Shown here piece after piece: positions 1 to 39,819 of a DNA stretch of 64,000 nt. The stretch comes from Branchiostoma floridae. Lineage: Eukaryota > Chordata > Leptocardii > Amphioxiformes > Branchiostomatidae. The translations under genes and the position numbers were made by a program. The stretch lies in NCBI RefSeq assembly GCF_000003815.2, contig NC_049986.1, positions 3,935,686 to 3,999,685 on the forward strand, in the 5' to 3' direction. Position 1 is the stretch's first letter. Every line of letters begins with the position of its first letter. The notes beneath the pieces are model-generated. The model ran no database searches. It saw only the letters and a program-made list of their open reading frames with translations, and had not been told where the DNA came from.

Positions 1-861
1 TCTACAATGGTTCCTGTAGACATTTGTAGTGATGTAGAAATCCTACACATTTCTACAGTCGTCGCTGTAGATGTTTGTAGAGAGGGACACAGGAAGCGGA
101 CCATCCAAGTTTTACATGTAGGCAGTGTAGTTTTGTAGAAATTCTACACATTTCTACAATGGTTCTTGTAGATATTTGTAGTGATGTAGAAATCCTACAC
201 ATTTCTACACTTGTCACTGTAGATATTTGTAGAGAAGGACATAGGAAGCGGACCATCCAAGTTTTACATGTAGGCAGTGTAGTTTTGTAGAAATCCTACA
301 CATTTCTACAATGGTTCTTGTAGACATTTGTAGTGATGTAGAAATCCTACATATTTCTACACTTGTCAATGTAGACATTTGTAGAGAGGGACATAGGAAG
401 CGGACCATTCAAGTTTTACATGTAGGCAGTGTAGTTTTGTAGAAATTCTACACATTTCTACAATGGTTCTTGTAGAAATTTGTAGTGATGTAGAAATCCT
501 ACACATTTCTACACTTGTCACTGTAGATAGTTGTAGAGAGGGACATAGGAAGCGGACCATCCAAGTTTTACATGTAGGCAGTGTAGTTTTGTAGAAATTC
601 TACACATTTCTACAATGTTTCCTGTAGATATTTGTAGTGATGTAGAAATCCTACACATTTCTACACTTGTCACTGTAGATAGTTGTAGAGAGGGACATAG
701 GAAGCGGACCATCCAAGTTTTACATGTAGGCAGTGTAGTTTTGTAGAAATCCTACACATTTCTACAATGGTTCTTGTAGACATTTGTAGTGATGTAGAAA
801 TCCTACACATTTCTACACTTGTCACTGTAGACAGTTGTAGAGAGGGACACAGGAAGCGGGG
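1..861 (+). repeat. 152-bp minisatellite array, outer left segment
   Basis: About 5.7 tandem copies of a 152-bp unit that runs on past the window start. Each unit carries landmarks such as GGACCATCCAAG, TTTACATGTAGGCAGTGTAG and two TGTAGAAAT...ATTTCTACA inverted repeats. Orientation is the same as 1274-4206 and opposite to 5578-9985. Units differ by scattered substitutions. The 152-bp period is not a multiple of three, so the 64-residue open frames in each unit shift frame from copy to copy and are not a protein gene. Confidence 0.95.
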
Positions 862-1273
862 CAGATGTTCCATGTACCACATCACGAAATCGCCGCGAAA
901 TGTAGCTAGCCGTGCGGTGTCGTTGCGACACCACGCCGTAGCCGTGTCTGGCATTTCGCCGTATGAGATTTCGTGATGTTCCATGTTCGCCGCAAAATGT
1001 TCGCCGCGAAATGTAGCTAGCCGTGCGGTGTCGTTGCGACACACTCGCCGTAGCCGTGTCAAGCATTTCGCCGTCTGCGATTTCGTGATGTCCCATGTAA
1101 GACATCACAAATTCACCGCGAAGTGCAACTTACCGCGCGGGTTCGTTGCAACGCCTTCGCCGTGTCAGGCATTCCGCCGTGACCGTGTCGGAATCGTGAA
1201 TGACATCACGACTACTAGTATAAAATCAACGCAAAATGCATCTAGCCCCGCGGGCCTGTTTCAACACCAATAA
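862..1273 (+). repeat. GC-rich foldback block, left copy
   Basis: A block of about 410 bp interrupts the minisatellite. It starts GGCAGATGTTCCATG and ends near CAACACCAATAACAC. It is made of three degenerate units of about 110 bp, each bounded by CATCACGAAATC / GATTTCGTGATG, so each unit is itself palindromic; the first two contain the hairpin GTGTCGTTGCGACAC. The 13-mer ACACAGGAAGCGG sits directly before (849-861) and after (1273-1285) the block. An inverted copy, about 95% similar by eye, lies at 9986-10386. Confidence 0.85.
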
Positions 1274-4206
1274 CACAGGAAGCGGACCATCCAAGTTTGG
1301 CATGTAGGCAGTGTAGTTTTGTAGAAATCCTACACATTTCTACAATGGTTCCTGTAGACATTTGTAGTGATGTAGAAATCCTACACAATTCTACAGTCGT
1401 CGCTGTAGATATTTGTAGAGAGGGACACAGGAAGCGGACCATCCAAGTTTTACATGTAGGCAGTGTAGTTTTGTAGAAATCCTACACATTTCTACAATGG
1501 TTCTTGTAGACATTAGTAGTGATGTAGAAATCCTACACATTTCTACACTTGTCACTGTAGACAGTTGTAGAGAGGGACACAGGAAGCGGACCATCCAATT
1601 ATTACATGTAGGCAGTGTAGTTTTGTAGAAATTCTACACATTTCTACAATGGTTCTTGTAGATATTTGTAGTGATGTACAAATCCTACACATTTCTACAC
1701 TTGTCACTGTAGATAGTTGTAGAGAAGGACATAGGAAGCCGACCATCCAAGTTTTACATGTAGGCAGTGTAGTTTTGTAGAAATTCTACACATTTCTACA
1801 ATGGTTCTTGTAGATATTTGTAGTGATGTAGAAATCCTACACATTTCTACACTTGTCACTGTAGACAGTTTTAGAGAAGGACATAGGAAGCGGACCATCC
1901 AAGTTTTACATGTAGGCAGTGTAGTTTTGTAGAAATTCTACACATTTCTACAATAGTTCCTGTAGACATTTGTAGTGATGTAGAAATCCTACACATTTCT
2001 ACACTTGTCACTGTAGATAGTTGTAGAGAGGGACACAGGAAGCGGACCATCCAAGTTTCACTTGTAGGCAGTGTAGTTTTGTAGAAATTCTACACATTTC
2101 TACAATGGTTCTTGTAGATATTTGTAGTGATGTAGAAATCCTACACATTTCTACACTTGTCACTGTAGATATTTGTAGAGAAGGACATAGGAAGCGGACC
2201 ATCCAAGTTTTACATGTAGGCAGTGTAGTTTTGTAGAAATTCTACACATTTCTACAATGGTTCCTGTAGATATTTGTAGTGATGTAGAAATCCTACACAT
2301 TTCTACACTTGTCACTGTAGATATTTGTAGAGAAGGACATAGGAAGCGGACCATCCAAGTTTTACATGTAGGCAGTGTAGTTTTGTAGAAATCCTACACA
2401 TTTCTACAATGGTTCTTGTAGACATTTGTAGTGATGTAGAAATCCTACACATTTCTACACTTGTCACTGTAGACAGTTGTAGAGAGGGACACAGGAAGCG
2501 GACCATCCAAGTATTACATGTAGGCAGTGTAGTTTTGTAGAAATTCTACACATTTCTACAATGGTTCTTGTAGATATTTGTAGTGATGTAGAAATCCTAC
2601 ACATTTCTACACATGTCACTGTAGATATTTGTAGAGAAGGACATAGGAAGCGGACCATCCAAGTTTTACATGTAGGCAGTGTAGTTTTGTAGAAATCCTA
2701 CACATTTCTACAATGGTTCTTGTAGACATTTGTAGTGATGTAGAAATCCTACATATTTCTACACTTGTCAATGTAGACATTTGTAGAGAGGGACATAGGA
2801 AGCGGACCATTCAAGTTTTACATGTAGGCAGTGTAGTTTTGTAGAAATTCTACACATTTCTACAATGGTTCTTGTAGACATTTGTAGTGATGTAGAAATC
2901 CTACACAATTCTACAATGGTTCTTGTAGATATTTGTAGTGATGTAGAAATCCTACACATTTCTACACTTATCACTATAGATATTTGTAGAGTGGGACACA
3001 GAAAGCGGACCATCCTAGTTTTACATGTAGGCAGTGTAGTTTTGTAGAAATTCTACACATTTCTATTATGGTTCCTGTAGACATTTGTAGTGATGTAGAA
3101 ATCCTACACATTTCTACACTTGTCACTGTAGATATTTGTAGAGAGGGACATAGGAAGCGGACCATCCAAGTTTTACATGTAGGCAGTGTAGTTTTGTAGA
3201 AATTCTACACATTTCTACAATGGTTCTTGTAGACATTTGTAGTGATGTAGAAATCCTACACATTTCTACACTTGTCACTGTAGATAGTTGTAGAGAGGGA
3301 CATAGGAAGCGGACCATCCAGTTTTACATGTAGGCAGTGTAGTTTTGTAGAAATTCTACACATTTCTACAATGTTTCCTGTAGATATTTGTAGTGATGTA
3401 GAAATCCTACACATTTCTACACTTGTCACTGTAGATAGTTGTAGAGAGGGACATAGGAAGCGGACCATCCAAGTTTCACATGTAGGCAGTGTAGTTTTGT
3501 AGAAATTCTACACATTTCTACAATGGTTCCTGTAGACATTTGTAGTAATGTAGAAATCCTACACAATTCTACAGTCGTCGCTGTAGATATTTGTAGAGAG
3601 GGACACAGGAAGCGGACCATCCAAGTTTTACATGTAGGCAGTGTAGTTTTGTAGAAATTCTACACATTTCTACAATGGTTCTTGTAGATATTTGTAGTGA
3701 TGTAGAAATCCTACACATTTCTACACTTGTCACTGTAGATATTTGTAGAGAAGGACATAGGAAGCGGACCATCCAAGTTTTACATGTAGGCAGTGTAGTT
3801 TTGTAGGACTTCTACACATTTCTACAATGGTTCTTGTAGACGTTTGTAGTGATGTAGAAAACCTACACATTTCTACACTTGTTACTGTAGATAGTTGTGT
3901 TTTGTAGAATTTCTACACATTTCTACAATGGTTCTTGTTGATATTTGTAGTGATGTAGAAATCCCACACATTTCTACACTTGTCACTGTAGATATTTGTA
4001 GAGAGGGACACAGGAAGCGGACCATCCAAGTTTTACATGTAGGCAGTGTAGTTTTGTAGAAATTCTACACAATTCTACAATGGTTCTTGTAGATGTTTGT
4101 AGTGATGTAGAAATCCTACACATTTCTACACTTGTCACTGTAGGTATTTGTAGAGATGGACACAGGAAGCGGACCATCCGAGTTTTACATGTAGGCAGTG
4201 TAGTTT
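1274..4206 (+). repeat. 152-bp minisatellite array, inner left arm
   Basis: Roughly 19 copies of the same 152-bp unit in the same orientation as 1-861. Variant units occur: one near 2865-2975 carries an extra internal repeat of about 50 bp, and units near 3800-3920 are truncated or rearranged. The array ends abruptly at GTAGTTTTG / GCAAGCATCG. With the right arm it forms a giant inverted repeat. No coding capacity is inferred. Confidence 0.95.
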
Positions 4207-4734
4207 TGGCAAGCATCGTTAGACCCCTGAAAATCTCCGGCGACCCTTAAAATTCGCAAGATGATCGTAAGAACACCTGACGTCTCACCTATGATAATGT
4301 CATTTAGAGCTCGCAGACAAGTCTTCAGATCGAGTTCCCCCCTCTAAGCAACTGCTTATTGACTTGGGGGGATGTTTGCTGGGTGTTCGCTCTGACTACA
4401 ACATCTTTCTGAACTTCAAGTTTCATTGCCAGCAGCTTGCCATCTATAAATGAGACTGAAGAGGACATTTTGAATAGTAAATTCCGTTGTTAAATTTGGC
4501 AGATGGCTTAGATACTACAAGAGATTTAGGTTTTAGTTGGACGGATTGACGAATAAAAATATCATACCACCATGGGGACTAACTGTTGCTGCTGGATGGG
4601 GGCTACCATTATTCATATTGACTATGGAACTACTGTAAAAATAAAATTGGTCAAATTATGCAAATTACCTTCCAGTGTCAATTGATACTCCAGAAATGAA
4701 TCTTTAATGAATAGCGTTAGAAGAACACACACCA

Positions 4735-5039
4735 ATGAGATTCAGCAGCTACCTGTACATTAGGTCAGCACAGCCAGACTCCCCCAAACTACAGAATATG
4801 TACATTTTGCAACAAAAAATGTGTAGAGAATGAAGTACATTTTCTTTTAGAATGCCCACTATAAACAGAGATGCGCAAATCTCTCATAAATACACTACAA
4901 CTTGATAATAAATATGTGTGTAAGTAAGGACCAAATGTTCAACTACATTATGACGACTAATGAATACAACGCACTTGAAAGATTTGTAAATTTCTGCACA
5001 CAAGTTTCAAAAAGAGAGAAGAGACTATGTAGATTTTAG
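4735..5039 (+). pseudogene. Decayed non-LTR retrotransposon RT C-terminus
   Basis: Across small frameshifts the plus strand reads an RT-associated zinc-ribbon-like end. At 4799-4857 the frame gives CTFCNKKCVENEVHFLLECP, the typical C-x2-C...HFLLECP signature near the end of LINE ORF2, followed by a stop where a Tyr is usual. Sequence before it (RFSSYLYI) and after it (TEMRKSLI) also fits. At 4935-5039 another frame gives a terminal segment ending FCTQVSKREKRLCRF and a stop, matching the usual last residues of such ORFs. The copy is broken and inactive. The family could be CR1-, L2- or Rex-like; I cannot decide. Confidence 0.65.
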
Positions 5040-5472
5040 ATGGTATAAGATGTAACCTGTTTCACGTATACTGAAGTTATTCAACCCAGTGCATTTAGCC
5101 CATGAAATTGGAAGATATCAGTACTGAATATATAATGTGACAGAATAACTACATGAGCCATCCAAGACAAAATAAGGTAGCAAACGTCGTCTCAACAACT
5201 ATAACGTACTGTGGTTGATTACATAGTTAAGAAATCTAAAATAGGTAATGTTCATCCATGTCTCAACTTACAAATTCCGAAAATGGAATTTCAGACTTTT
5301 GCATGGTGCACAAAAAACACGGTAAAAAGCTCACTTTTCTAACCATGTACCACAGACGAAAGGGAAAAAATAAACACAATAGGTCTACAGACACCAAATA
5401 CATTTCATGCAGGGCTCATGTGGGTCTGAGGTCTAAGAACTCTTGTTTCTTTCTGTTCTACTAGCCCCTCTG

Positions 5473-5577
5473 GTGCACATTGTTTAGAGATTGAAAAAGG
5501 TCGTCACCGTAACACACCAGCCACTCAGAGACTGACGAGTGTCCTACATGTCATAATTATATAGAAGATGAATTCCA
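5473..5577 (+). pseudogene. Second truncated RT C-terminal fragment
   Basis: The reading AHCLEIEKGRHRNTPATQRL, then after a one-base shift CPTCHNYIEDEFH, is the same part of a non-LTR reverse transcriptase as the fragment at 4735, but from a different element. It is cut off exactly where the right-hand minisatellite arm begins, so the array boundary truncates the retroelement. Confidence 0.55.
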
Positions 5578-8500
5578 CAAGTGACAAGTGTAGAAATGTG
5601 TAGGATTTCTACATCACTACAAATGTCTACAGGAACCATTGTAGAAATGTGTAGAATTCCTACAAAACTACACTGCCTACATGTAAAACTTGGATGGTCC
5701 GCTTCCTATGTCCCTCTCTACAAATATCTACAGTGACAAGTGTAGAAATGTGTAGGATTTCTACATCACTACAAATGTCTACAGGAACCATAATAGAAAT
5801 GTGTAGAATTTCTACAAAACTACACTGCCTACATGTAAAACTAGGATGGTCCGCTTTCTGTGTCCCACTCTACAAATATCTATAGTGATAAGTGTAGAAA
5901 TGTGTAGGATTTCTACATCACTACAAATATCTACAAGAACCATTGTAGAATTGTGTAGGATTTCTACATCACTACAAATGTCTACAAGAACCATTGTAGA
6001 AATGTGTAGAATTTCTACAAAACTACACTGCCTACATGTAAAACTTGGATGGTCCGCTTCCTGTGTCCCTCTCTACAAATATCTACAGCGACGACTGTAG
6101 AATTGTGTAGGATTTCTACATCACTACAAATGTCCACAGGAACCATTATAGAAATGCGTAGAATTTCTACAAAACTACACTGCCTACATGTAAAACTTGG
6201 ATGGTCCGCTTCCTATGTCCCTCTCTACAAATATCTACAGTGACAAGTGTAGAAATGTGTAGGATTTCTACATCACTACAAATATCTACAAGAACCATTG
6301 TAGAAATGTGTAGAATTTCTTCAAAACTACACTGCCTACAAGTGAAACTTGGATGGTCCGCTTCCTGTGTCCCTCTCTACAACTATCTACAGTGACAAGT
6401 GTAGAAATGTGTAAGATTTCTACATCACTACAAATGTCTATAGGAACCATTGTAGAAATATGTAGAATTTCTACAAAACTACACTGCCTACATGTAAAAC
6501 TTAGATGGTCCGTTTCCTATGTCCCTCTCTACAAATATCTACAGTGACAAGTGTATAAATGTGTAGGATTTCTACATCACTACAAATGTCTACAGGAACC
6601 ATTGTAGAAATGTGTAGAATTTCTACAAAACTACACTGCCTACATGTAAAACTATGATGGTCCGCTTTCTGTGTCCCACTCTACAAATATCTATAGTGAT
6701 AAGTGTAGAAATGTGTAGGATTTCTACATCACTACAAATATCTACAAGAACCATTGTAGAAATGTGTAGATCACTACAAATGTCTACAAGAACCATTGTA
6801 GAAATGTGTAGAATTTCTACAAAACTACACTGCCTACATGTAAAACTTGGATGGTCCGCTTCCTGTGTCCCTCTCTACAAATATCTACAGCGACGACTGT
6901 AGAATTGTGTAGGATTTCTACATCACTACAAATGTCCACAGGAACCATTGTAGAAATGTGTAGAATTTCTACAAAACTACACTGCCTACATGTAAAACTT
7001 GGATGGTCCGCTTCCTGTGTCCCTCTCTACAAATATCTACAGCGACGACTGTAGAATTGTGTAGGATTTCTACATTACTACAAATGTTTACAAGAACCAT
7101 TGTAGAAATGTGTAGAATTTCTACAAAACTACACTGCCTACATGTGAAACTTGGATGGTCCGCTTCCTATGTCCCTCTCTACAAATATCTACAGTGACAA
7201 GTGTAGAAATGTGTAGGATTTCTACATCACTACAAATGTCTACAGGAACCATAATAGAAATGTGTAGAATTTCTACAAAACTACACTGCCTACATGTAAA
7301 ACTAGGATGGTCCGCTTTCTGTGTCCCACTCTACAAATATCTATAGTGATAAGTGTAGAAATGTGTAGGATTTCTACATCACTACAAATATCTACAAGAA
7401 CCATTGTAGAATTGTGTAGGATTTCTACATCACTACAAATGTCTACAAGAACCATTGTAGAAATGTGTAGAATTTCTACAAAACTACACTGCCTACATGT
7501 AAAACTTGGATGGTCCGCTTCCTGTGTCCCTCTCTACAAATATCTACAGCGACGACTGTAGAATTGTGTAGGATTTCTACATCACTACAAATGTCCACAG
7601 GAACCATTATAGAAATGCGTAGAATTTCTACAAAACTACACTGCCTACATGTAAAACTTGGATGGTCCGCTTCCTATGTCCCTCTCTACAAATATCTACA
7701 GTGACAAGTGTAGAAATGTGTAGGATTTCTACATCACTACAAATATCTACAAGAACCATTGTAGAAATGTGTAGAATTTCTTCAAAACTACACTGCCTAC
7801 AAGTGAAACTTGGATGGTCCGCTTCCTGTGTCCCTCTCTACAACTATCTACAGTGACAAGTGTAGAAATGTGTAAGATTTCTACATCACTACAAATGTCT
7901 ATAGGAACCATTGTAGAAATATGTAGAATTTCTACAAAACTACACTGCCTACATGTAAAACTTAGATGGTCCGTTTCCTATGTCCCTCTCTACAAATATC
8001 TACAGTGACAAGTGTATAAATGTGTAGGATTTCTACATCACTACAAATGTCTACAGGAACCATTGTACTCACGGCAATACGAGTCGGTACNNNNNNNNNN
8101 NNNNNNNNNNNNNNNNNNNNNNNNNNNNNNNNNNNNNNNNNNNNNNNNNNNNNNNNNNNNNNNNNNNNNNNNNNNNNNNNNNNNNNNNNNCATGTGAAAC
8201 TTGGATGGTCCGCTTCCTGTGTTCCCTCTCTACAAATATCTACAGTGACAAGTGTAGAAATGTGTAGGATTTCTACATCACTACAAATGTCTACAGGAAC
8301 CATTGTAGAAATGTGTAGAATTTCTACAAAACTACACTGCCTACATGTGAAACTTGGATGGTCCGCTTCCTATGTCCCTCTCTACAAATATCTACAGTGA
8401 CAAGTGTAGAAATGTGTAGGATTTCTACATCACTACAAATGTCTACAGGAACCATTGTAGAAATGTGTAGAATTTCTACAAAACTACACTGCCTACATGT

Positions 8501-9985
8501 AAAACTTGGATGGTCCGCTTCCTGTGTCCCTCTCTACAACTATCTATAGTGATAAGTGTAGAAATGTGTAGGATTTCTACATCACTACAAATATCTACAA
8601 GAACCATTGTAGAAATGTGTAGATCACTACAAATGTCTACAAGAACCATTGTAGAAATGTGTAGAATTTCTACAAAACTACACTGCCTACATGTAAAACT
8701 TGGATGGTCCGCTTCCTGTGTCCCTCTCTACAAATATCTACAGCGACGACTGTAGAAATGTGTAGGATTTCTACATCACTACAAATGTCTACAGGAACCA
8801 TTGTAGAAATGTGTAGAATTTCTACAAAACTACACTGCCTACATGTAAAACTTGGATGGTCCGCTTTCTGTGTCCCACTCTACAAATATCTACAGTGACA
8901 AGTGTAGAAATGTGTAGGATTTCTACATCACTACAAATGTCTACAAGAACCATTGTAGAAATGTGTAGAATTTTTACAAAACTACACTGCCGACATGTAA
9001 AACTTGGATGGTCCGCTCCCCGTGTCCCTCTCTTCAAATATCTACAGTGACAAGTGTAGAAATGTGTAGGATTTCTACATCACTACAAATGTCTACAGGA
9101 ACCATTGTAGAAATGTGTAGAATTTCTACAAAACTACACTGCCTACATGTAAAACTAGGATGGTCCACTTTCTGTGTCCCACTCTACAAATATCTATAGT
9201 GATAAGTGTAGAAATGTGTAGGATTTCTACATCACTACAAATATCTACAAGAACCATTGTAGAAATGTGTAGGATTTCTACATCACTACAAATGTCTACA
9301 AGAACCATTGTAGAAATGTGTAGAATTTCTACAAAACTACACTGCCTACATGTAAAACTTGGATGGTCCGCTTCCTATGTCCCTCTCTACAAATATCTAC
9401 AGTGACAAGTGTAGAAATGTGTATGATTTCTAAATAACTACAAATATCTACAAGAACCATTGTAGAAATGTGTAGAATTTCTACAAAACTACACTGCCTA
9501 CAAGTGAAACTTGGATGGTCCGCTTCCTGTGTCCCTCTCTACAAATATCTACAGTGACGACTGTAGAATTGTGTAGGATTTCTACATTACTACAAATGTC
9601 TACAGGAACCATTGTAGAAATGTGTAGAATTTCTACAAAACTACACTGCCTACATGTAAAACTTGGATGGTCCGCTCCCCGTGTCCCTCTCTACAACTAT
9701 CTACAGTGACAAGTGTAGAAATGTGTAGGATTTCTACATCACTACAAATGTCTACAGGAACCATTGTAGAAATGTGTAGAATTTCTACAAAACTACACTG
9801 CCTACATGTAAAACTAGGATGGTCCGCTTCCTGTGTCCCTCTCTACAACTATCTACAGTGACAAGTGTAGAAATGTGTAGGATTTCTACATCACTACAAA
9901 TGTCTACAGGAACCATTGTAGAAATGTGTAGGATTTCTACAAAACTACACTGCCTACATGCGAAACTTGGATGGTCCGCTTCCTA
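5578..9985 (-). repeat. 152-bp minisatellite array, right arm (inverted)
   Basis: About 29 copies of the 152-bp unit in opposite orientation to 1-4206 (here the plus strand reads CTTGGATGGTCC). It is interrupted by the N run 8091-8190. A higher-order duplication with 1461-bp offset is visible (5702-6606 versus 7163-8067). The variant with an extra internal repeat of about 50 bp recurs (for example near 5890-6000, 7350-7460 and 9200-9310), matching the left-arm variant near 2865-2975. Non-coding. Confidence 0.95.
8068..8190. other. Assembly gap with 23-bp unrelated edge
   Basis: At 8068 the minisatellite stops in mid-unit. It is followed by 23 bases unrelated to the repeat (8068-8090), then 100 Ns; the array resumes at 8191. 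The 100-N run is a conventional gap of unknown length. The odd bases may be an end-of-contig artefact. Confidence 0.8.
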
Positions 9986-10386
9986 TGTTATTGGTGTTGA
10001 AACAGGCCCGCGGGGTTAGATGCATTTTGCGTTGATTTTATACTAGTACGTGATGTCATTCACGATCCCGACACGGTCACGGCGGAATGCCTGACACCGC
10101 GAAAGCGTTGCAACGAACCCGCGCGGTAAGTTGCACTTCGCGGTGAATTTGTGATGTCTTACATAGGACATCACGAAATCGCAGACGGCGAAATGCTTGA
10201 CACGGCTACGGCGAGTGTATCGCAGCGATACTGCACGGCTAGCTACATTTTGCGGCGAACATGGAACATCACGAAATCGCAGACGGCGAAATGCCTGACA
10301 CGGCTACGGCGAATGTGTCGCAACGACACCGCACGGCTAGCTACATTTCGCGGCGATTTCGTGATGTGGTACATGGAACATCTGCC
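9986..10386 (-). repeat. GC-rich foldback block, right copy
   Basis: Inverted copy of 862-1273 with the same palindromic sub-units, ending on the plus strand in GGAACATCTGCC at 10386. Outside it the sequence becomes unique at once. The left copy, by contrast, is followed outward by more minisatellite. This end is the best candidate for the true outer boundary of the foldback element. Confidence 0.85.
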
Positions 10387-13945: not shown

Positions 13946-15949
13946 ACAGCAAAGAATACATATAGCGTCGCGTGTACATTCTTCAGTTGCGTGCACCAAG
14001 TATATATGGTAACACGTCATTGTCGAACACACAGGTTGGCGAGTTCATCTCTTCAAAACGACTCGGAAGAGAAGGTAAAGAAATTTGTAGGTCGGCTTGG
14101 ACATGACTCGTCCGTCATAAGGCGGTATGTACACATTTTTGGTGTATTTGATTTGCTCGATAATTTCTTTTCTTTTATTACATTGGCTCCACCACTGGCC
14201 CCTTGTGGGTTCGTTTGGCGTAAATGCTGGGTGTTTGGTAAGAAGTTTTTTAATGTCAGAAAAAAATATAAAACCTCTGTTGTATAGCAGTAATTAATGC
14301 GTTAGCAGTAGATCAAGGTATTGTTATACACAAGTGAGTAGTACAAGTATACAGCACATGAAGTGTTAACGTTAGATGTGAAGTAAAATATAGGACTTTT
14401 CTCACCCCATTTAGGTGTAAATATGCGTGCCTTACTTCGGTTGGAAGGTAAAAAGAGATGCCTAAGTTACCTTTTAATTCTCAAGATATGGGTCAATTTA
14501 TGAATTGTACCCTTATGTTGCAGTTTCCACGCCGTAAACAGAGCATGTTTGGAGTTATAATGAGCTGTGTCGGCCTAGATGACAGAGCCTTATTAGCGCT
14601 CCTTTGTCTTCGCGGGCACTTTCATGCAAATCGCCCCTTTGTGTTTGTGCTCGGAGCGGGAGTTTCAACTGTGAAACGAAATCTCTGGAATCGTTCAGTG
14701 TGTGTATTCAGTACTGTTGTCTCGTATTTGTTTTAAAGTAAGGAGCTTTGATTAAAGCTATTTTAGATGACCCAGGTTTCGTCAAAATCGCGTTTCGCAA
14801 ATTACTTGTATTTGATTGTGTAACACAACAATTCTGGGCATCGGTTACATTAGTCAGACTGGAATTTATGCTTTTTATCTATCCCAAGTTGTGTGTGTGT
14901 TTTTGTGTGTGCTTGGTTTTTTTCTTCTTCATTCTGTGTTTCATTTTTTGGCTACATTAGGTCAGCTATCGTTATGAGACCGTTAACCTGGACAAATAGA
15001 TATACAGTCGAGTTGGCCCAAAGACAAACAATATTCCGCGGGCTCACGATCACGCTGCCCACTTTTTGTAATTCCCGTTCCCCATTACCTTTCCTACACA
15101 CAAGATACTGGGAAGACTATGTAAGCGTCTGTCCAAGCCATCCCCGATGTCCTGTGACTGATTACTCAAATGTTGCCGATAACGGAGGAAAACCGTGGAA
15201 ATGGCGAGTGTTTGGGTCGAGTTTACGTGCCCCAAACAAAGAATAAACATGGTGCACGCCAGGGATAGTCCACTGCATTGTAGGTGGAAATGTTGCGCGC
15301 GGTTTGATTGTTTTCTATATTGAACTCTGCAGAACGTAAATCAATTCATTGCAGGACTTTTTTTTTTTCAAAATAAAGAGAACAAATTTCAAAAAATGTA
15401 TGACTCAATAAGATACTTGGTCTGAAAATAGATGGTGCCTGTTATTTCGAATGTACAGCTCACCCATGCTGCTACAAATGATGTTACCCAAGCGGGATGA
15501 TTGTTGTCACAACTTATGGCGGCGGCGGTAATTCGTAACATGTTACAAAGCACCTTTTTGGAAAGGTCTAAAATGCCAGTTCGGGATTATAAAATCAACT
15601 TTAGGTCTACAACCCGGGCAATGATTGGAGAAAAAATATACAAACCAGGAATAGCCCGATTCTTGATTCCAAGCCAAGATCGCAACAACAAAGAAATTTC
15701 AGACGAAATTTCAACCAACGATACATTAAATAAAAGGCATATACTACACAGCTACATCAGTTTTACTTGCGGCCTGGGCTCTGTGGATTTCGTATCACAC
15801 TATAGTTCAATAGTATTCTTCAAGTCTCATTTGTGACGCAGTTACCGAGAAATTACTTCCAGGAGTATAGAGAAAGAAATCCAGGTAAGTGCCACATGTT
15901 GTTATTTCATTTTCTCAATATTACTAAGTTTTCTTCCTTTAAAAAGCAG
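13946..15949. other. Intergenic, no clear exon
   Basis: Open frames up to 138 residues are present on the plus strand but lack recognisable domains and codon-like regularity. A good donor-like CAG/GTAAGT occurs at 15884/15885, 65 bp before the acceptor of the exon at 15950, but the sequence before it does not look like an LRR cap. Confidence 0.4.
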
Positions 15950-17314
15950 ATAACATGTACTCGACCCGCCAAATTACAGGGACAAAAGCTTATGCGTATC
16001 AATCCTGAAGAACTGATATGTGAAGAACCAACCATATCAACACTGCCTGTTGATATCAGTACCTTACCCGTCTCATTTCCGGTGTCGACGTCTTCTACGG
16101 TTGGCAACACAGTAAGTGTTGCTGGTCCAACGGCGCGTCCAGAAGGTTTGACATCTTCATCACAGCCCCTTATTGTCCCAATAGAAAGTACTGACAACGA
16201 TTACGGTTGCCCCGTCCCCACTCGCTTTTACTGGTACATCAAATATAATGTTGGTTCAACTGTACGTTCTGCAGGTGAAACTAAGCAAACAAGAACAACA
16301 CGGGCTTCGCCCCTTCCTTTCGCTTCAGACAAGCCAGAAGGCATTTCTCTTGAATTATCTCCCAGTTTCTCCCTTCCTGTTCTCATTGCCTCTATCTGTG
16401 GCACAGCAGCTGGCATGGGTCTGATTGGTCTCATCATTTTTACAGTCTTGTGCAAGAAGAGGACCTTGCATCCCCCTTCAGGACTAAATCCCAATGTTGT
16501 TGGTAACAACTCAAATACAGCAGCTTCTGCAATGATCAAAGGTAATGATCATACAGGGCCGGGTCAGTCTCAGGCCATCATTCAGTCTCTGCAAATTGAA
16601 ACCCTATCACGTAACGTTCTAGCTGCCTTAAAGGCAAATACTATGTACACAGGTGTTGGCACACTATCTCAAGACCAGACATCTACCGCAATGACCAGTG
16701 GTCATGACCAAACAGGACAGGGTCGGTCTCAGACCATCACTGAATCCAATACAAAAATCGCAGCAGCTATAGTGACCAGTGGCCATGATCACCAGTATGA
16801 AGATATAGACAAACAACATAATCAGACAGGGCAGGGCCAGTCTCAGGCCATCTCTGAATCCAACACAAACATCACAGCAGCTGTAGTGACCAGTGGCCAT
16901 GATCACCAGTATGAAGATATAGACAAACAACATGATCAGACAGGGCAGGGCCAGTCTCAGACCATCACTGAATCCAACCCAAACACCACTGCTGCTGTAG
17001 GGACCAGTGGTCATAATCAGACAGGGCAGGGTCAGTCTCAGGCTAACGCTCAATCTGTTAGAGTTGGAAATCTATCATATAAGGAAGTACTAGCCTTAAA
17101 GCTAAATCATTTGTACGCAGGTGAGGAAACATTAACAAAACAATCAGTATTCACAGCAATGGGCATCGCCAGTGGTCAAAACCACGATCAGACAACGCAG
17201 GGTCAGTCTCAGGCTATCACTGAAGCATTGGATGCTAGCAATATTTCTTATGGTACAGGACCAAATGCCTCACAGCTGAATTTCCTGTATGCAAATATAA
17301 ACGACTATTATTAA
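15950..17314 (+). CDS. 3' exon of an LRR receptor: LRRCT end, stalk, TM, repetitive tail
   Basis: An open frame of 454 codons runs from a probable splice acceptor (pyrimidine-rich, AAAAAGCAG at 15941-15949) to TAA. It begins ITCTRPAKLQGQ...LICEEP, which resembles the last part of a leucine-rich-repeat C-terminal cap. A Ser/Thr/Pro-rich stalk (about residues 30-138) and one membrane helix (about 140-168, PVLIASICGTAAGMGLIGLI, stop CKKR) follow. The cytoplasmic tail is made of degenerate repeats: GHDHQYEDIDKQH twice, and several TGQGQSQ units with tyrosines in YEDI, YTGV, YAGE and YANI contexts. The architecture is that of lancelet-type LRR transmembrane receptors. I see no LRR or signal-peptide exon upstream, so this may be an orphan exon, a pseudogene, or the 3' end of a gene whose ectodomain was lost in rearrangement. 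The reading frame itself is intact. Confidence 0.7.
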   Translation: MTCTRPAKLQGQKLMRINPEELICEEPTISTLPVDISTLPVSFPVSTSSTVGNTVSVAGPTARPEGLTSSSQPLIVPIESTDNDYGCPVPTRFYWYIKYNVGSTVRSAGETKQTRTTRASPLPFASDKPEGISLELSPSFSLPVLIASICGTAAGMGLIGLIIFTVLCKKRTLHPPSGLNPNVVGNNSNTAASAMIKGNDHTGPGQSQAIIQSLQIETLSRNVLAALKANTMYTGVGTLSQDQTSTAMTSGHDQTGQGRSQTITESNTKIAAAIVTSGHDHQYEDIDKQHNQTGQGQSQAISESNTNITAAVVTSGHDHQYEDIDKQHDQTGQGQSQTITESNPNTTAAVGTSGHNQTGQGQSQANAQSVRVGNLSYKEVLALKLNHLYAGEETLTKQSVFTAMGIASGQNHDQTTQGQSQAITEALDASNISYGTGPNASQLNFLYANINDYY

Positions 17315-23613: not shown

Positions 23614-24458
23614 CTAATGCTTCTTCAGTTTCCTGTTTATCAATCGGTGGGACCAGTCGCTGGGACGGACCATCATTTTCGTCTCTTTGAGAGAGTAGTA
23701 AGAATTGTAGTTGAACGGCCACCACGTAACGCCATAGCCGTTATAACCGGAAAATGGGCTGTCAGTAAAATCTCGAAAGTACGGACCGTTCAGGTTACAA
23801 TAGCAGCCGTCAAAGCTGTACCACCACCCACCGCCACACACTTCTACCCATTTAGGGACTGAGCCCACGTCTTCGTCGTCCGAACGGGTGCTAAACTTAG
23901 TCCCGTTGATGTTATAGCGAGATGATGTCGACAGACCCGTTCCGAACCCATCCCCAGCCGTCCCACTGAATCCCCCGATAGTCAGAGCGTAACCATCCCC
24001 CGGACCCACTGAGAAGGTGGAGTATTTAGCGTATTTTACAATTCTGCCCCAGTCTTTGAGCTCAATGTACAACTCGTACGAGTTCTGTGTTGTTAAGGCA
24101 TGGATGAAGTCTAACCCTAACCAATGTTCACCTGTTGTGAATCCAAACCCTCCCTGGTACGCACCCATAAAGCGGAAGAATTCCAAGGACCCGTTAAACC
24201 TCCTCTGTATGACCGTCCACCCTCCCCCATCTGTGGTCTGATCACAGTAAGGATAGATCACGGTATCATAATTTAAAGGTTTGATAGCGTACACCCCGTC
24301 AGTTGTGAAGCCAGCAGTGTAAAGCTGGGAGCAATCTTGCAGGTAGTGCGTTCGAGTCAGCCTTTTGCCTGGATGACGGTTGTCGGGAAGTCGTTGCTTG
24401 TAGCCGCGTACTTCGTCTCTTTTGCCTTCTTCTTCGTCGTGAAATGTTGGTGGAGATT
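23614..24458 (-). CDS. Fibrinogen-related (FReD) protein, last exon
   Basis: The last exon starts at a good acceptor (TTTCCTGTAG, exon from 24458) and ends at TGA (23614): 280 codons. Residues 1-45 are a charged linker (DEEEGKRDE...). The fibrinogen C-terminal domain then runs almost to the end. It opens DCSQLYTAGFTTDGVYAI and has CDQTTDGGGWTVIQRR, a candidate calcium loop near FSTRSDDEDVG, the core CGGGWWY...CNLNGPY, and ends ETKMMVRPSDW. FReD proteins are mostly secreted lectin-like or adhesion molecules (ficolin, tenascin, angiopoietin, FIBCD families). No collagen region is seen, so no subfamily is assigned. The exon at 25350-25445 joins it in phase. Confidence 0.9.
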
Positions 24459-25042
24459 CTACAGGAAAGCACAGATTTTTAGCCTACATATATCAGGCTC
24501 TCTGGTACCTTTTTTGTTTTTATAAGTTTTCTTATCGTCCCTTAATTGAATCTAAAATTTTTCAGGCCTTGCTATGGAAATTGTATTCGGCCATAGGCTG
24601 ACATTGCTTACAATTGTATTGGAGTGTACTTTGGTAGTCGTGCTGAATACTGAATGCTTTTTGGTGCGCGTGCGACCAATGAATTTTTTATCACAAACCG
24701 TGACGTAATATGCATTATCTAGTTCCTACAATTATTAGCTACTAGAAAAAAACACCCCATTCTGGAGCTTAGGTGTCATTTAAGATATGTGCCACGTGCC
24801 TGTTTATGTTTATACGACAGTTCAGCTGCTTACCTTTTTCCGCCTGCTCGCTCTGACGGGGCTCCGTTGAAACAGGAGTCAGTCCATCGTCAGTGGTATT
24901 TTCCTCAAGTACGTTCGAGGATTCTGGGGATGGAAATCAGCACATGCATTTCTTCCGTTTTTTTTTGTGTGAACGCCGCATTATTAGTCATTAATTATTT
25001 TTTCCAAATGATGTATAATATAGAAATGCGTTTAGGTGTGCT

Positions 25043-27629: not shown

Positions 27630-28229
27630 CTAACTTTTTGTGTGAAACCGCGCCACGTGTTTATTCAGAGAACAGAGCCGAGAGAACCGCGTGTTGCACA
27701 CATCACACCTAAACGGTTTCAGTCCCAGGTGAATTTGCATGTGTGTCTTCAGATTCCCCTGCCGACTGAACTGCATGTTGCACACCCCACACTTAAACGG
27801 TTTCTCTCCGGTATGTACAAACATGTGCTTTTGCAGAGAGCTCTGCTGACTGAACCGCCTGCCGCACTCCTCACATCTGTAGGGTTTCTCACCCGTGTGA
27901 GTCCTCATGTGTGCCTTCAGAGAACACAGTTGACTGAACTGTCTGTTGCACTCACCACAGTGATAAGGTTTCTCTCCTGTGTGCGTCCGCATGTGACTTT
28001 TTAGTTGACATAGGTAAGTGAACTGTCTGTTGCAGTTCCCACACTGGTAAGGTGTCTCAGCCTTCGTGCTTGTTACTTGCGGTCTTTGTAGTTTAACATC
28101 AGCCTGACGAAGCTGGATCGGAACGAGTGTTTGCCCGCTCTCTACATTCCAGTACAGGCAACCGATGAAAACGCCCGGTCCGTTCGCAGTCCAATCCCCG
28201 CGTTGTCCGATGTCAGTCCTGCTTTCCAT
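27630..28229 (-). CDS. C2H2 zinc-finger protein, five fingers
   Basis: A single coding exon of 199 codons starting at ATG 28229 in strong context (GCCATGG), 13 bp inside an acceptor (TTTCTTTACAG; exon from 28242). The N-terminal region of about 60 residues has no recognised domain. Five fingers in tandem follow from about residue 62 ([50 protein letters not shown]), joined by TGEKP linkers except the last (LGLKP), ending HVARFHTKS. It is predicted to be a nuclear sequence-specific DNA-binding protein. The fourth-to-fifth linker is atypical. Lineage-specific C2H2 families are common, so no ortholog is named. Confidence 0.92.
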
Positions 28230-28242
28230 GGCGAGCAAAATG

Positions 28243-29525
28243 CTGTAAAGAAAAGATACAGTCGTTGTTTTAGTCTATAAGAAGTCGAAAACAGTTGAAG
28301 ATTCACACAGCACAGAATTTGGTGTTAGCGACTAAACCTCGGCTATTGTCAACAATCACCATTGCAACAACCGAGGCAATCTATGAAACAATGTACAATT
28401 TCAATCACAAGTCTTGCACGTCGAACTTTCGTGGATTTGAGATATTGTCCTCCCACTCCTAAAGTACAATATTAGCCCCTCCGTTTCATTAGGTTGGTAA
28501 TTACTCATATAACGTTCGTAATGTTCTTTTAAACACAACCAGGATAGTATTTACAAACAATTTTTTCGATGCCTGTCGGATATAAGTACTACCCTGGTTG
28601 TGTTGAATGATAACTTTACTATATGAACATTCATGTACACAAACAACAGGAGCTACTAGTAATAAACTATCAGCGTACAAAATTGTCTTCACGTATTGAT
28701 CCAAGGAACAATTTCTGAGTTGTTTTCACATCCTTAACTTATCAACTTATTTTTAGGTTAAAACCCAGTAAATCCGAATTGTGTCTAAAACGTCCATTTT
28801 CAAATTTTTTTATTCATTTCTTCCTCAAACGTACATAGGCAGGGAAATACACACATGGTATACCCTGAATTGCGTAGGTTTGTTACAAAGAAACTTAAAC
28901 GTGCAGAATGTCAACAAACAAAAATACATAATATATTAACAACCACTAAGCATAGATCCGAACTCACAGGCTGATGGTAATGCTAGGAAATAGAGTCACT
29001 TATCGAGTAACTTGAAAACTTTTTACACCCTTACTGGCTAGGAGTCTAATATTTCAACACACTTTAAGCACGATAAAGCTAGTCTACCAGGCTCAACAGC
29101 GAAGAGAGGAAACGGTAGAAATTGTCAAAACAAACAGATAACACGCCAAGGGTGTTAGCTGGTCGAGTTTGCCGCTAACTAACTCCTCTAGCGAGTTTTC
29201 TATTTATCTGTTAAACGTCAACTATTTTCTAACCGCCTGGTAGAGGCTACAATGAAGCTACAACTCCTTACTGGTCTCGAAATAGCAACATCCCCCGGAT
29301 GTTTACCTCTGCTTTCAATCAAGTTGTACTGTCAATGAATCTACATATTCCATTCAAGCTATTTCATTCTGTTGATATTTGTTCAATTTTGTATTCTATA
29401 TGTATGTATGCTGTCACGACATCAGCATGCTGCTAATGTGTCCACATTGTATTGTCTATGTTGCAATCTGAATAAAGTCAAAGTCAACGTAACAGCTTAG
29501 AAAATATAGTCAAGGTAGTACTTAC
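28243..29525 (-). other. Probable 5'UTR intron of the zinc-finger gene
   Basis: Bounded by acceptor TTTCTTTACAG next to 28242 and a strong donor TCG/GTAAGT at 29525. It contains a retroelement tail at 29360-29487. Confidence 0.5.
29360..29487 (+). mobile_element. Retroelement 3' tail (GAATAAAGTCAAAGTC type)
   Basis: Shares CAATTTTGTATTCTATATGT, CACGA...GCATGCTG and GAATAAAGTCAAAGTCA with related tails at 44155-44285 and 48475-48598. No ORF. It is likely the 3'UTR of a CR1-like LINE or a SINE parasitising it. Confidence 0.55.
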
Positions 29526-36686: not shown

Positions 36687-39083
36687 CTAATGAACAGGGC
36701 GGTGCGGTTCACTTCTTTGCCCTTCCCTCTGCAGAGATGTGTAGATGTGGTCTCGTTCCTCAAGGAGATCCTGGTACAGATGGTTCTCACTTTCCCCCGG
36801 ATCTGCTGCAGTTCCAAGTCCCTGTTGTGGTATTTGGTCGTAAATACGTCCGTCCCTACCCACATCATCTTGGTCGCCAGGGCCTTCCCTTTGTAAGGTT
36901 TGGTTCTGATACACATTGGCTCTTAGCTCGTAAAGATTGACATCTTCGTATTCACCGTCATCGTCTTCAAATCCTAGATTAGCATTGTCAACTCCTCGCC
37001 GTCTTTGTGCCGTGGCAACCGTTGCGTCTTGGGGTGAGGATTTGTTAGCCAAACTTCTGTTAGCCCGTCTTTTGATGTACACAATCATAGCGACAATGAT
37101 ACATAGTATTACACCACCAATGAAGGACCCAACGGTTGCAACAATTAGTGTTGCAGAGCTGTGTGCAACATTCTCCTCATGACCAGGGGCTACCGCGTTA
37201 GTAGACGGTGATAGCCCTGCGACTGTCCCTGTTGTTAACGGGACAGCTTCTGTGGCATATGAGGGAATGGACAATGTGGATGGCCCTGTAGTTGATGGGA
37301 CAGTTTCTGTGGCTGATGAGGGAATGGCCAATGTGGATGGCTCTGTAGTTGACGGGACAGTTTCTGTGGCAGATATAGGAATGGGCAATGTGGATGGCTC
37401 TGTAATTGACGGGACAGTTTCTGTCACAGTGGCAGATAGAGGAATGGACAATGTGGATGGTCCTGTCATTGACGGGACAGTTTCCGTGGCGTGTGATGGA
37501 ATGCACACTGATGGTATATTTGTCGTTGATGGGACTGCATCCGTTTCAGCAGGAATTACAAAGAGGGATAAGGTTTTCCTATCATCCCCGACAACGTTTG
37601 ATGCATGACATGTGTAATGGCCCTGGTCACTAATCTGTCTACGGTTAATTGTCAGTCTGGATTCAACACTGTTGTAGCCCAGGGTTGTTGTACTGACCTC
37701 GTCATGTGATCTGACTATTGGTAGTCCGTTAGGTTGAACAGGTGTCCATGACCATGTTATTGCGGGTCGGTTCGAGCCTGTAGCATGGCAGTTCACGGTC
37801 AAAGTCTCCCCTATTAGAGATGGACTGATGTTGTGAATGATGGGGCTAGAGCAAGCCAGGTTGCTTAGGGTAAGGTCGGAAAGCCTGATGTCGTTCAATA
37901 CAGGAGGCAATCGGCAGATGATTTCATCTCCTAAGTTTGGGCAGTTTAGGATTTCCCTCATCCGGCAGTCACAAGACCAATGATTGTTAGACAGATTGAA
38001 ACGAAAATCATAGGGGTAAGTACTGAAATCACATAGAGTGGACGGAATAGTTTCTAAGTTATTGTCTTGGAATTTGAAAGAACCAAAGTGTACATTTCTG
38101 AGCGTGTATGTGAATGCCTCTTCGTGAATCCTTTCCAGCTGCGTATCAGACAAATCTATGTCGGCATGATTATATGCCATATGGTCATATTTAGAACTAA
38201 TGTTATAGAAGCTGTACTTGCCCAGCTGTTTTATATGGTTCCCTTTTAGTTTAAGTGTAAATCCAATATCAAAAGTAATGTTGGAAAATGTCCAATCACG
38301 TACCCAAGTGATATTATTATGTGATAAATCCAAAGTTTCAAAGAAGCGACTAGAGAACATGTTTGGCTGAATAGTTGCTACCTCATTATATGACATATTA
38401 AAGTATCTGAGACTTTTCAAGCTAGCCACAGAGGAGGGGATCACAGCAATGAAATTAAAAGAAATATCGAGGTATGAGAGCTGGTTTAAGCCGGCAAATA
38501 TGCCATCGTCAAGAGATCGTATTTCGTTATGAGAAGTACCAAGGTATGAGAGTTGGTACAACCCTGCAAACGTATGATTGTTTAGTGTTGAAATCTGGTT
38601 ATGAGAAATAGATAATGTTCTAAGTTTGTTCAAGTTGACAAAAGCATCACTAGGTAAGGATGTTAGTCTGTTATAATGAAGGTAAAGAACTGTAAGCTCC
38701 ACCAAGTGTTGGAAACTCCCTGGCTCTACGACACTAATACTATTGTTATGAAGGTATAACTCTCGGAGATTCTGTAATCCAACAAATATCTGTGATAGGA
38801 TTATTGTTATCTCATTGTTATCAATATTAAGCCTTGTTAGATTTGGTAGGTGTTGAAGCTTTGTATTTTCAATTGCCCCTATCTTATTGTGGCGAAGTGT
38901 TAGATATGTTGTAGATGATGGAATGTTATCAGGGATTGAATCTAGGTTTTTGTTATCACAGTTAACCCTTGTACCGCTACAGCTGCAGACTCCTGGTCCA
39001 TCCGGGGAGGTACAGGCTTGTAAAGCTGCAGTCAGGCTTACCAGGGCCATGCAGAAGGTCAGGATGGTAGTACAGCTGCACAT
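36687..39083 (-). CDS. LRR-Ig transmembrane receptor with mucin-like stalk and ITAM tail
   Basis: A single uninterrupted coding exon of 798 codons. ATG 39083 is chosen because it opens a signal peptide (MCSCTTILTFCMALVSLTAA) and lies 24 bp inside an acceptor (TTGACTTCCAG), implying a 5'UTR intron. Layout: signal 1-23; LRR N-cap about 24-56 (C-x8-CSC); about twelve LRRs to 365 (LYLHNNSISVVEPGSF type); LRR C-cap about 368-411 (WSCDCRM); one Ig domain about 413-510 (NCHAT...DQGHYTCHASN); a Ser/Thr/Pro stalk 511-640 with repeats of the form ATETVPSTTEPSTL; TM 644-670; basic stop KRR; a 125-residue tail. Tail tyrosines include YDQI (748) and the pair Y770-x2-L...Y781-x2-L. It is probably a surface receptor; the LRR-Ig family is expanded in lancelets and often discussed in immunity or neural adhesion. 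The ligand is unknown. Confidence 0.93.
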   Translation of the reverse strand: MCSCTTILTFCMALVSLTAALQACTSPDGPGVCSCSGTRVNCDNKNLDSIPDNIPSSTTYLTLRHNKIGAIENTKLQHLPNLTRLNIDNNEITIILSQIFVGLQNLRELYLHNNSISVVEPGSFQHLVELTVLYLHYNRLTSLPSDAFVNLNKLRTLSISHNQISTLNNHTFAGLYQLSYLGTSHNEIRSLDDGIFAGLNQLSYLDISFNFIAVIPSSVASLKSLRYFNMSYNEVATIQPNMFSSRFFETLDLSHNNITWVRDWTFSNITFDIGFTLKLKGNHIKQLGKYSFYNISSKYDHMAYNHADIDLSDTQLERIHEEAFTYTLRNVHFGSFKFQDNNLETIPSTLCDFSTYPYDFRFNLSNNHWSCDCRMREILNCPNLGDEIICRLPPVLNDIRLSDLTLSNLACSSPIIHNISPSLIGETLTVNCHATGSNRPAITWSWTPVQPNGLPIVRSHDEVSTTTLGYNSVESRLTINRRQISDQGHYTCHASNVVGDDRKTLSLFVIPAETDAVPSTTNIPSVCIPSHATETVPSMTGPSTLSIPLSATVTETVPSITEPSTLPIPISATETVPSTTEPSTLAIPSSATETVPSTTGPSTLSIPSYATEAVPLTTGTVAGLSPSTNAVAPGHEENVAHSSATLIVATVGSFIGGVILCIIVAMIVYIKRRANRSLANKSSPQDATVATAQRRRGVDNANLGFEDDDGEYEDVNLYELRANVYQNQTLQREGPGDQDDVGRDGRIYDQIPQQGLGTAADPGESENHLYQDLLEERDHIYTSLQREGQRSEPHRPVH
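37212..37508 (-). repeat. Coding minisatellite in the receptor stalk
   Basis: About five in-frame copies of a unit of about 60 bp encode the Thr/Ser/Pro repeats TETVPSxTxPSTLxIPxSA. Copies differ slightly, and one carries an extra dipeptide (TV). The stalk is expected to be O-glycosylated and may vary in length between alleles. Confidence 0.8.
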
Positions 39084-39819
39084 CTTTGGCTCTTTAATAG
39101 GTAAAACACTGGAAGTCAATATTTACGTTGTTGTTTAAGCTTGTTAAGCAGTTAATTGCATTGAATCTTACTAGCTTTTCTTTAAGTAAAATTACATGTA
39201 AATTGTGACCACCTTTTACTGAGACGGCGACCGTTGAATGACAATTTACAACCCAAATTATCATAAGAACTTTGACCAAATATCATTGATTAAGAAATGA
39301 AGTTTGTAGGTTTTGAGTGCGTTTGTGTGTTATTTATATTTTTATTGTTTTAAATCAAAAGTTAAATTTAACGTACATAACATAAAGTTATAGGTCATAC
39401 AAATCCAATTTTGGTTCCTCATCGAGTCTATCTAATAGAATTGGGATTTTTTGCCGAGAACGATAACATAATGCAGATATACGGATACGGGTATCATTCG
39501 TTTGGTACAAGCAGCCAGTAATGTTCATCAAATACTACTAGTACATATGAAATGTGGTAGTGTTCGTTAACAGTAGTCTTTATCTAATATCAATAAAAAA
39601 GTTCACGTTTTATTGGTAGTCAACGTTACATTACAGAAAAGAATATTTCATGAACAGTGTGTCAGTACAAAACATACCTTGCTTGCTTCAACTCTCTGCT
39701 TCAATGAAACAGTATTCTTTCTTGATCAGCTTGATGATATCTTAAGAACCTCCCTGGACAGTTTTCCGCTCATTGGATTTCAATTCTTCTGCTTAGGGAA
39801 AAAAGAACTGTTTTTAGTT
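39084..39819. other. 5' flank of the LRR-Ig receptor, no gene seen
   Basis: Shared upstream region between the minus-strand receptor and plus-strand sequence. No clear TATA box or leader exon was identified. Confidence 0.35.

Follow-up and report, generated by a model that had tools for sequence, protein, structure and literature searches.

Features of the locus

The window analysed here is a stretch of 64,000 bp (G000:C8:3935686–3999685), and the genome searched with it comprises 513,431,437 bp in 431 contigs. A large inverted-repeat structure occupies its left end, and several open frames lie to the right. On the plus strand, a 502-aa open frame (15806–17314) contains a 114-bp (38-aa) in-frame tandem repeat with YEDI-like tyrosine motifs, preceded by a probable membrane segment recognized by eye. 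The frame has no Pfam match, and its predicted product resembles the tail of a receptor in which signalling motifs recur. On the minus strand, an 811-aa frame (36687–39122) encodes an Ig domain in addition to leucine-rich repeats; a Ser/Thr-rich stretch coincides with 57-bp tandem repeats, and several tyrosine motifs were recognized by eye in the tail. The same strand carries a Fibrinogen C-terminal domain protein (23614–24483, E = 1.3e-46), a C2H2 zinc-finger protein with five zf-C2H2 stretches (27630–28274) and a CEMIP beta-helix fragment (56631–57023, E = 3.4e-29).

Architecture of the window copy

The transposon proper spans positions 860–10386 (9,527 bp) and does not begin at base 1, as a preliminary description of this DNA had assumed. 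It opens with a 31-bp terminus, GGCAGATGTTCCATGTACCACATCACGAAAT (860–890, plus strand, exact pattern match), which forms the outer edge of a GC-rich end block, or flanking domain (860–1272, plus strand), composed of tandem subunits of roughly 98 bp. Four copies of ACATCACGAAAT, allowing up to two mismatches, are present in this block, one of them inside the terminus. The left inner array follows (1273–4208, plus strand), its 152-bp unit consisting of two 51-bp subunits (42/51 alike) and about 50 bp of additional sequence. A spacer (4209–5576) separates this arm from the right inner array (about 5577–9988, minus strand), where the 152-bp units are inverted, some measuring 194 and 203 bp, and where units R13–R17 recur as R22–R26. 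The right arm is interrupted by a 100-bp assembly gap (8091–8190) and ends in a GC-rich block that is an inverted copy of the left one (9989–10386, minus strand), with its own 31-bp terminus (10356–10386, minus strand).

The terminal inverted repeats (TIRs) thus delimited measure about 3.3 and 4.8 kb. Inverted matches of at least 90% identity, not all of them collinear, cover all of 860–4208 and 97% of 5577–10386, which bears out the mirrored 152-bp arrays noted previously. The left and right blocks are identical in 400 of 432 aligned columns (93%, first array bases included).

The preliminary description had both arms capped by the GC-rich block. The mirror copies are indeed in place, but 859 bp of same-strand 152-bp array (1–859, plus strand, 5.7 copies) lie outside the left block and end at GGAAGCGG against the element terminus. 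Immediately upstream of the window, the assembly has 17,123 consecutive N. Three units of this outside array, F1, F2 and F4, have exact (100%) counterparts in left-arm units L16, L10 and L14, in a different order; the best full-length match of the outside array to the window's own left arm is 96.5%, with no identical contiguous copy. The array at 1–859 is probably part of a host element that received the window element by insertion. The flank of the right terminus, GTTTCATT, differs from the left flank GGAAGCGG, with 1/8 bases matching, and this copy accordingly lacks a target duplication.

A dispersed family with a common terminus

A search with the end block found 46 genomic matches, of which 40 were scored; many form plus–minus pairs 0.3 to 11 kb in size. 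The 31-bp terminus, searched with up to three mismatches, gave 85 matches (44 forward and 41 reverse), against 0 and 0 for the reversed-pattern control. The terminus reads GGCAGATGTTYCRTGTA. A shorter, looser terminus pattern returned 54 + 47 matches (control, 3 and 3). From these 101 termini, 86 with at most one mismatch entered the pair analysis, which left out 14 with two or three mismatches and one unlisted. Among the 28 neighbouring pairs less than 25 kb apart, 24 face inward, two are arranged −−, one ++ and one −+; a 50-kb pair on C12 exceeds the distance limit of this count. One of the 24 inward pairs, at C13:13562812, lies within a cluster as its inner pair, and the duplication is shared by the outer ends of that cluster. 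Dispersed copies thus have common exact ends, as expected of foldback transposons. The copies at C262, C3 and C1:34.10M (C1b) have block and array at both sides and no N inside, and the left blocks of C262 and C4 are 97% alike in unrelated flanks.

Two of these loci show local peculiarities. At G000:C13:13558314 and 13562812 (L030 and L029), two left termini with an identical 16-base left flank belong to one cluster that ends at 13580265; the doubled terminus may be a local duplication, a haplotype copy or an assembly artefact. At C9:15.32M and C9:16.40M (L033 and L034), the right flank and an altered right end are common to both copies, one of which probably arose from the other by segmental duplication.

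A query of two array units found 217 matches in the genome. Among the array matches listed, identity reaches at least 85% at 11 places, 10 of which also have a block match; the remaining one is C371, an unplaced contig. Array matches near 75–84% fall mainly at loci of the second subfamily described below, with C430:1992 and C11:10855052 lying outside the terminus check. Judged from these sequence matches, the 152-bp array belongs to the element.

Target site duplications of 8 bp

We read the flanks of 16 end-pairs, namely 14 of the 24 inward pairs, C9a (with the altered right end) and the outer C13 pair. The 8-bp flanks are identical in seven of the 16 and match at 7/8 or better in ten, compared with 0/210 crossed pairs of the first 15 end-pairs at that level. 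Exact duplications occur at C5:25.60M (CTGAAAGC), C3:20.43M (the C3 copy; ATCTTTCA), C12:17.57M (CCAAAGTG), C13:13.56M (the outer C13 pair; TCGTTTCT), C14:16.03M (the C14 copy; GAACATAT), C7:16.76M (AAAGAGAC) and C7:24.51M (ATGATTCA), and 7/8 matches at C1:24.72M (C1a), C1b and C12:2.53M (C12b). The other six end-pairs fall below 7/8: C262 and C12:17.69M match at 6/8 and C9:2.16M at 5/8, and three match poorly, C9a at 4/8, C5:3.42M at 2/8 and the window copy at 1/8. The duplication length is fixed at 8 bp in the family, another property expected of foldback transposons. The C5:25.60M copy (C5:25598110–25602698), which has CTGAAAGC at both flanks and N gaps in its interior, is a sibling in the window copy's own subfamily.

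The preliminary description had named recurrent block–array–spacer–array–block units with target duplications as support for a transposon. Such units exist, with flanks matching at 8/8 in C3 and 7/8 in C1b, and C262 (6/8) has them as well. Together with the 46 block matches and the ten end-pairs at 7/8 or better, they uphold the foldback-transposon reading, and foldback-like behaviour of the family is strongly supported.

Three subfamilies of composite arms

The family comprises three subfamilies (A, B and C) with a common terminus. In each, an outer GC-rich block made of repeats is followed by an inner array, whose units measure 152, 104 and about 155 bp, respectively. Subfamily A (152-bp units, block repeats of about 98 bp) includes the window copy, C262, two C9 copies, C5, C4, C235, C7:12.10M, C12:20.49M and C156. 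Subfamily B has 104-bp units, and its block, about 230 bp long, contains 107-bp repeats; its copies include C1b (6,216 bp), C3 (10,790 bp), C12:17.57M (10,302 bp, left side read) and C12b (2,050 bp). The left array of C12b measures only 62 bp and its flanks match at 7/8, so not every copy is two-armed. At the lower extreme, C1a is a 300-bp block-to-block copy without an array. The B blocks match the A block in part, at about 75–78%, and identity between the B arrays and the A unit is about 75–84%, indicating that the two subfamilies are relatives. Subfamily C, described from samples of one copy, is marked by TTTC in its terminus, by GC-rich 110-bp repeats and by an inner array with a period of 155 bp; at E 1e-3, blastn matched none of the sampled sequence to loci of subfamilies A and B. 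Of the 55 matches to its block (40 scored), 43 reach 90% or more, and 14 pairs have this block at both ends.

ACATCACGAAAT-like sites (up to two mismatches) number two to five per block, terminal site included, in seven blocks spanning subfamilies A, B and C, against a shuffled mean of at most 0.07. The motif is not restricted to blocks, since the left array of C1b has 14 sites; the left array of the window has none at the same tolerance.

In subfamily B (L045–L050), block ends are often nearer the ends of other elements than their own partner. The right block of C12b and the left block of C12c agree at 99.2%, and the left blocks of C3 and C12b at 98.0%; a contrary case is C1b, whose two blocks agree at 99.2%. 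In sequence, these ends look as if they formed two lineages.

One transposase might mobilize at least three giant foldback lineages that retain the terminus, with drift or exchange altering the remainder of the arm, an idea that we put forward tentatively and regard as rather unlikely. If true, the composite arm would be modular, with the 31-bp terminus alone fixed.

Spacers and the search for a transposase

Among 40 scored of 583 candidates, the spacer segment 4304–4951 has full-length matches only at itself, at C235:364798 (94%) and at C262:146646 (93%). The C262 match lies inside its element, whereas a gap separates the C235 match from a left terminus 9.8 kb away. All three full-length matches carry at the same position a dispersed repeat (4335–4772, plus strand; spacer-query positions 32–469) that recurs at many other places at 82–89% identity. 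These matches indicate that the spacer moved together with the element.

The loop was previously said to carry LINE fossils. The RT-tail-like loop peptide in question, whose motif we take to be LINE/RT-like, scores 12 bits against Pfam zf-RVT (E = 0.36; cut-off, 27.5), so that the LINE assignment is weakly supported. The longest stop-to-stop frames measure 71 aa in the window loop, 102 aa in C262, 127 aa in C3, 101 aa in C1b, 61 aa in C12b and 108 aa in the part of C12:17.57M that was read; ATG-, GTG- and TTG-start frames of the loops were examined as well. Fourteen frames and one loop peptide from the loops examined, including the three longest frames of the window loop, have no Pfam match over the curated cut-off. 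This agrees with the earlier remark that no transposase is visible in the window, and among the loops examined we found no autonomous relative with a transposase, the other kind of support that had been envisaged.

The pairs of near-constant size (8.6–9.0 kb) were considered as autonomous copies, an idea that the sampled sequence of one of them does not bear out: three 400-bp stretches from the C14 copy, about 1.2 kb in total, consist of GC-rich repeats, inner array and a centre with a longest frame of 69 aa, although the remainder of that copy may contain coding sequence.

Duplications of 8 bp fit several of the P, MULE, hAT, KDZ and Merlin superfamilies. The family may belong to one of these known transposase superfamilies, with the enzyme inside some of the unread copies, a reading that we take seriously while leaning slightly against it. 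In its favour, besides the compatible duplication length, several pairs of 12–20 kb are among the copies with unread interiors (C234:94199, C15:2236660, C13:2409871 and C235:245384). The 8-bp length is neither the 7 bp of Galileo nor the 9 bp of Rehavkus, and lies within the range of 8–11 bp given for MULEs in excerpts of PMC6446971. Against it stands the distribution of the enzymes themselves. Profile searches of the genome returned 78 matches to five transposase families, none of which starts in the 30 intervals checked (terminus pairs and some wider spans) or less than 20 kb from any of 34 further listed termini that were tested. With the interiors of most copies unread, a terminus pair encloses 0 of 3 P-type matches (PF21787), 0 of 27 MULE matches (PF10551) and 0 of the 33 hAT (PF05699), 12 KDZ/Zisupton (PF18758) and 3 Merlin (PF12762) matches. 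As a separate observation, the 27 PF10551 matches over the cut-off contrast with an excerpt of PMC6446971, according to which MULE transposase was not found for the Florida lancelet.

Proposed mechanism and origin of the window copy

Taken jointly, these data are best explained by a non-autonomous, foldback-type cut-and-paste transposon with composite TIRs, an account that we consider very probable; a transposase acting in trans, exchange between arrays and a nested window copy are its inferred parts. The TIR is a composite in which the 31-bp terminus is followed by the GC-rich block, with its repeats of about 98 bp, and then by the inner 152-bp array. A transposase supplied in trans would recognize the terminus and perhaps also the ACATCACGAAAT-like block motif, whose copies are candidate sites, and the arrays would lengthen through unequal exchange. 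In the window, the left arm of one element would have received a second element by insertion, and recombination between the two right arms would later have removed the inner right end. Nested insertion followed by such recombination could account both for the mismatched flanks and for array sequence beyond the left block. Consistent with nesting, the outside array joins the block exactly at the element end, and nesting predicts another left block with GTTTCATT upstream, at a position within the 17-kb gap.

The published B. floridae assembly has 19 chromosomal scaffolds and a Sanger shotgun origin, and the likely source of the present sequence combines tenfold Sanger shotgun data, haplotype merging and chromatin-capture scaffolding (PMC7269912, in excerpt). 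Array lengths and the junction between outside array and block may therefore be assembly products. Such a history lends some weight to a competing reading, in which the foldback family is real and the array–block–array order at the window's left side results from two elements having been joined in assembly; base 1 also adjoins the 17-kb stretch of N, and the 100-bp gap interrupts the right arm. We regard this reading as possible if doubtful, because the sequence is continuous at the junction, whose position coincides exactly with the element terminus, as expected of an insertion.

Somewhat less probable still, and on balance unlikely, is a chimeric copy produced by ectopic exchange between two separate elements instead of nested insertion. 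The window flanks, matching at a single base in eight, would suit such an origin, for which 12 Galileo copies with non-matching flanks provide a precedent (PMC3573991, in excerpt). The left window block is moreover 96.2% identical to its own right partner, and closer to blocks C7aL (97.8%), C5R (96.8%) and C9aL (96.4%). A simple exchange alone, however, leaves unexplained an array that ends exactly at the left terminus, the feature that nested insertion accommodates.

A local inverted duplication or palindromic satellite without transposition, the other possibility raised in the preliminary description, is very improbable: it could draw on the homogenized array units of the window (identical F and L units; R13–R17 recurring as R22–R26) and on C371, where array matches occur without a block match, but it is contradicted by the seven exact 8-bp duplications and opposed by the inward-facing dispersed pairs with exact common ends, by the near-identical C262 and C4 blocks in unrelated flanks, and by the block match at 10 of the 11 array places listed.

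Comparison with known foldback systems

Among deuterostomes, sea urchins have foldbacks, the TU elements, whose outer domains are tandem and whose duplications measure 8 bp. A non-autonomous element published from amphioxus, ATE-1, may be identical with the family described here. An existing repeat-database entry for the family is likewise possible. Our search of the open-access literature, covering titles and abstract openings, returned no named foldback in amphioxus. A sizeable foldback family with kilobase arms and a clear 8-bp duplication is now documented in a lancelet genome, and these two properties make empty-site and transposase searches direct. Inversions, gaps and misassembly are also likely to arise at such paired inverted arrays.

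In architecture, the family most closely recalls elements of Drosophila and nematodes, compared here through excerpts of their descriptions. Tetris, a foldback of Drosophila virilis, also has a flanking domain followed by an outer domain of tandem repeats (about 220 bp there), and a middle domain of varying content described as having no conserved ORF (PMC4079207). Its duplications measure 8–9 bp in three complete copies and 9–10 bp in rearranged ones (PMC4079207). Tetris, for which an inner TIR domain is described, differs in its TIRs of up to 1,735 bp, compared with about 3.3 and 4.8 kb in the window copy, and the likeness concerns architecture; its short relative DAIBAM is comparable to the 300-bp C1a copy (PMC4079207). 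Galileo, a member of the P superfamily in Drosophila, shares long TIRs with expanding tandem repeats, non-autonomous copies made of two TIRs and chimeric copies with mismatched flanks (PMC3573991). Its duplications are 7 bp long, as opposed to 8 bp here, and in the genome searched here none of the three P-type matches lies in a terminus pair. Tm1, a Mutator/Foldback element of root-knot nematodes, resembles the family in its composite TIRs with tandem motifs and in its MITE-like members, and differs in its motifs of about 14 bp and its mostly 9-bp duplications (8–10 bp), against 8 bp here (PMC3169594). By analogy with Tetris and Galileo, whose architecture it matches, we interpret the lancelet elements as a family of foldback transposons.
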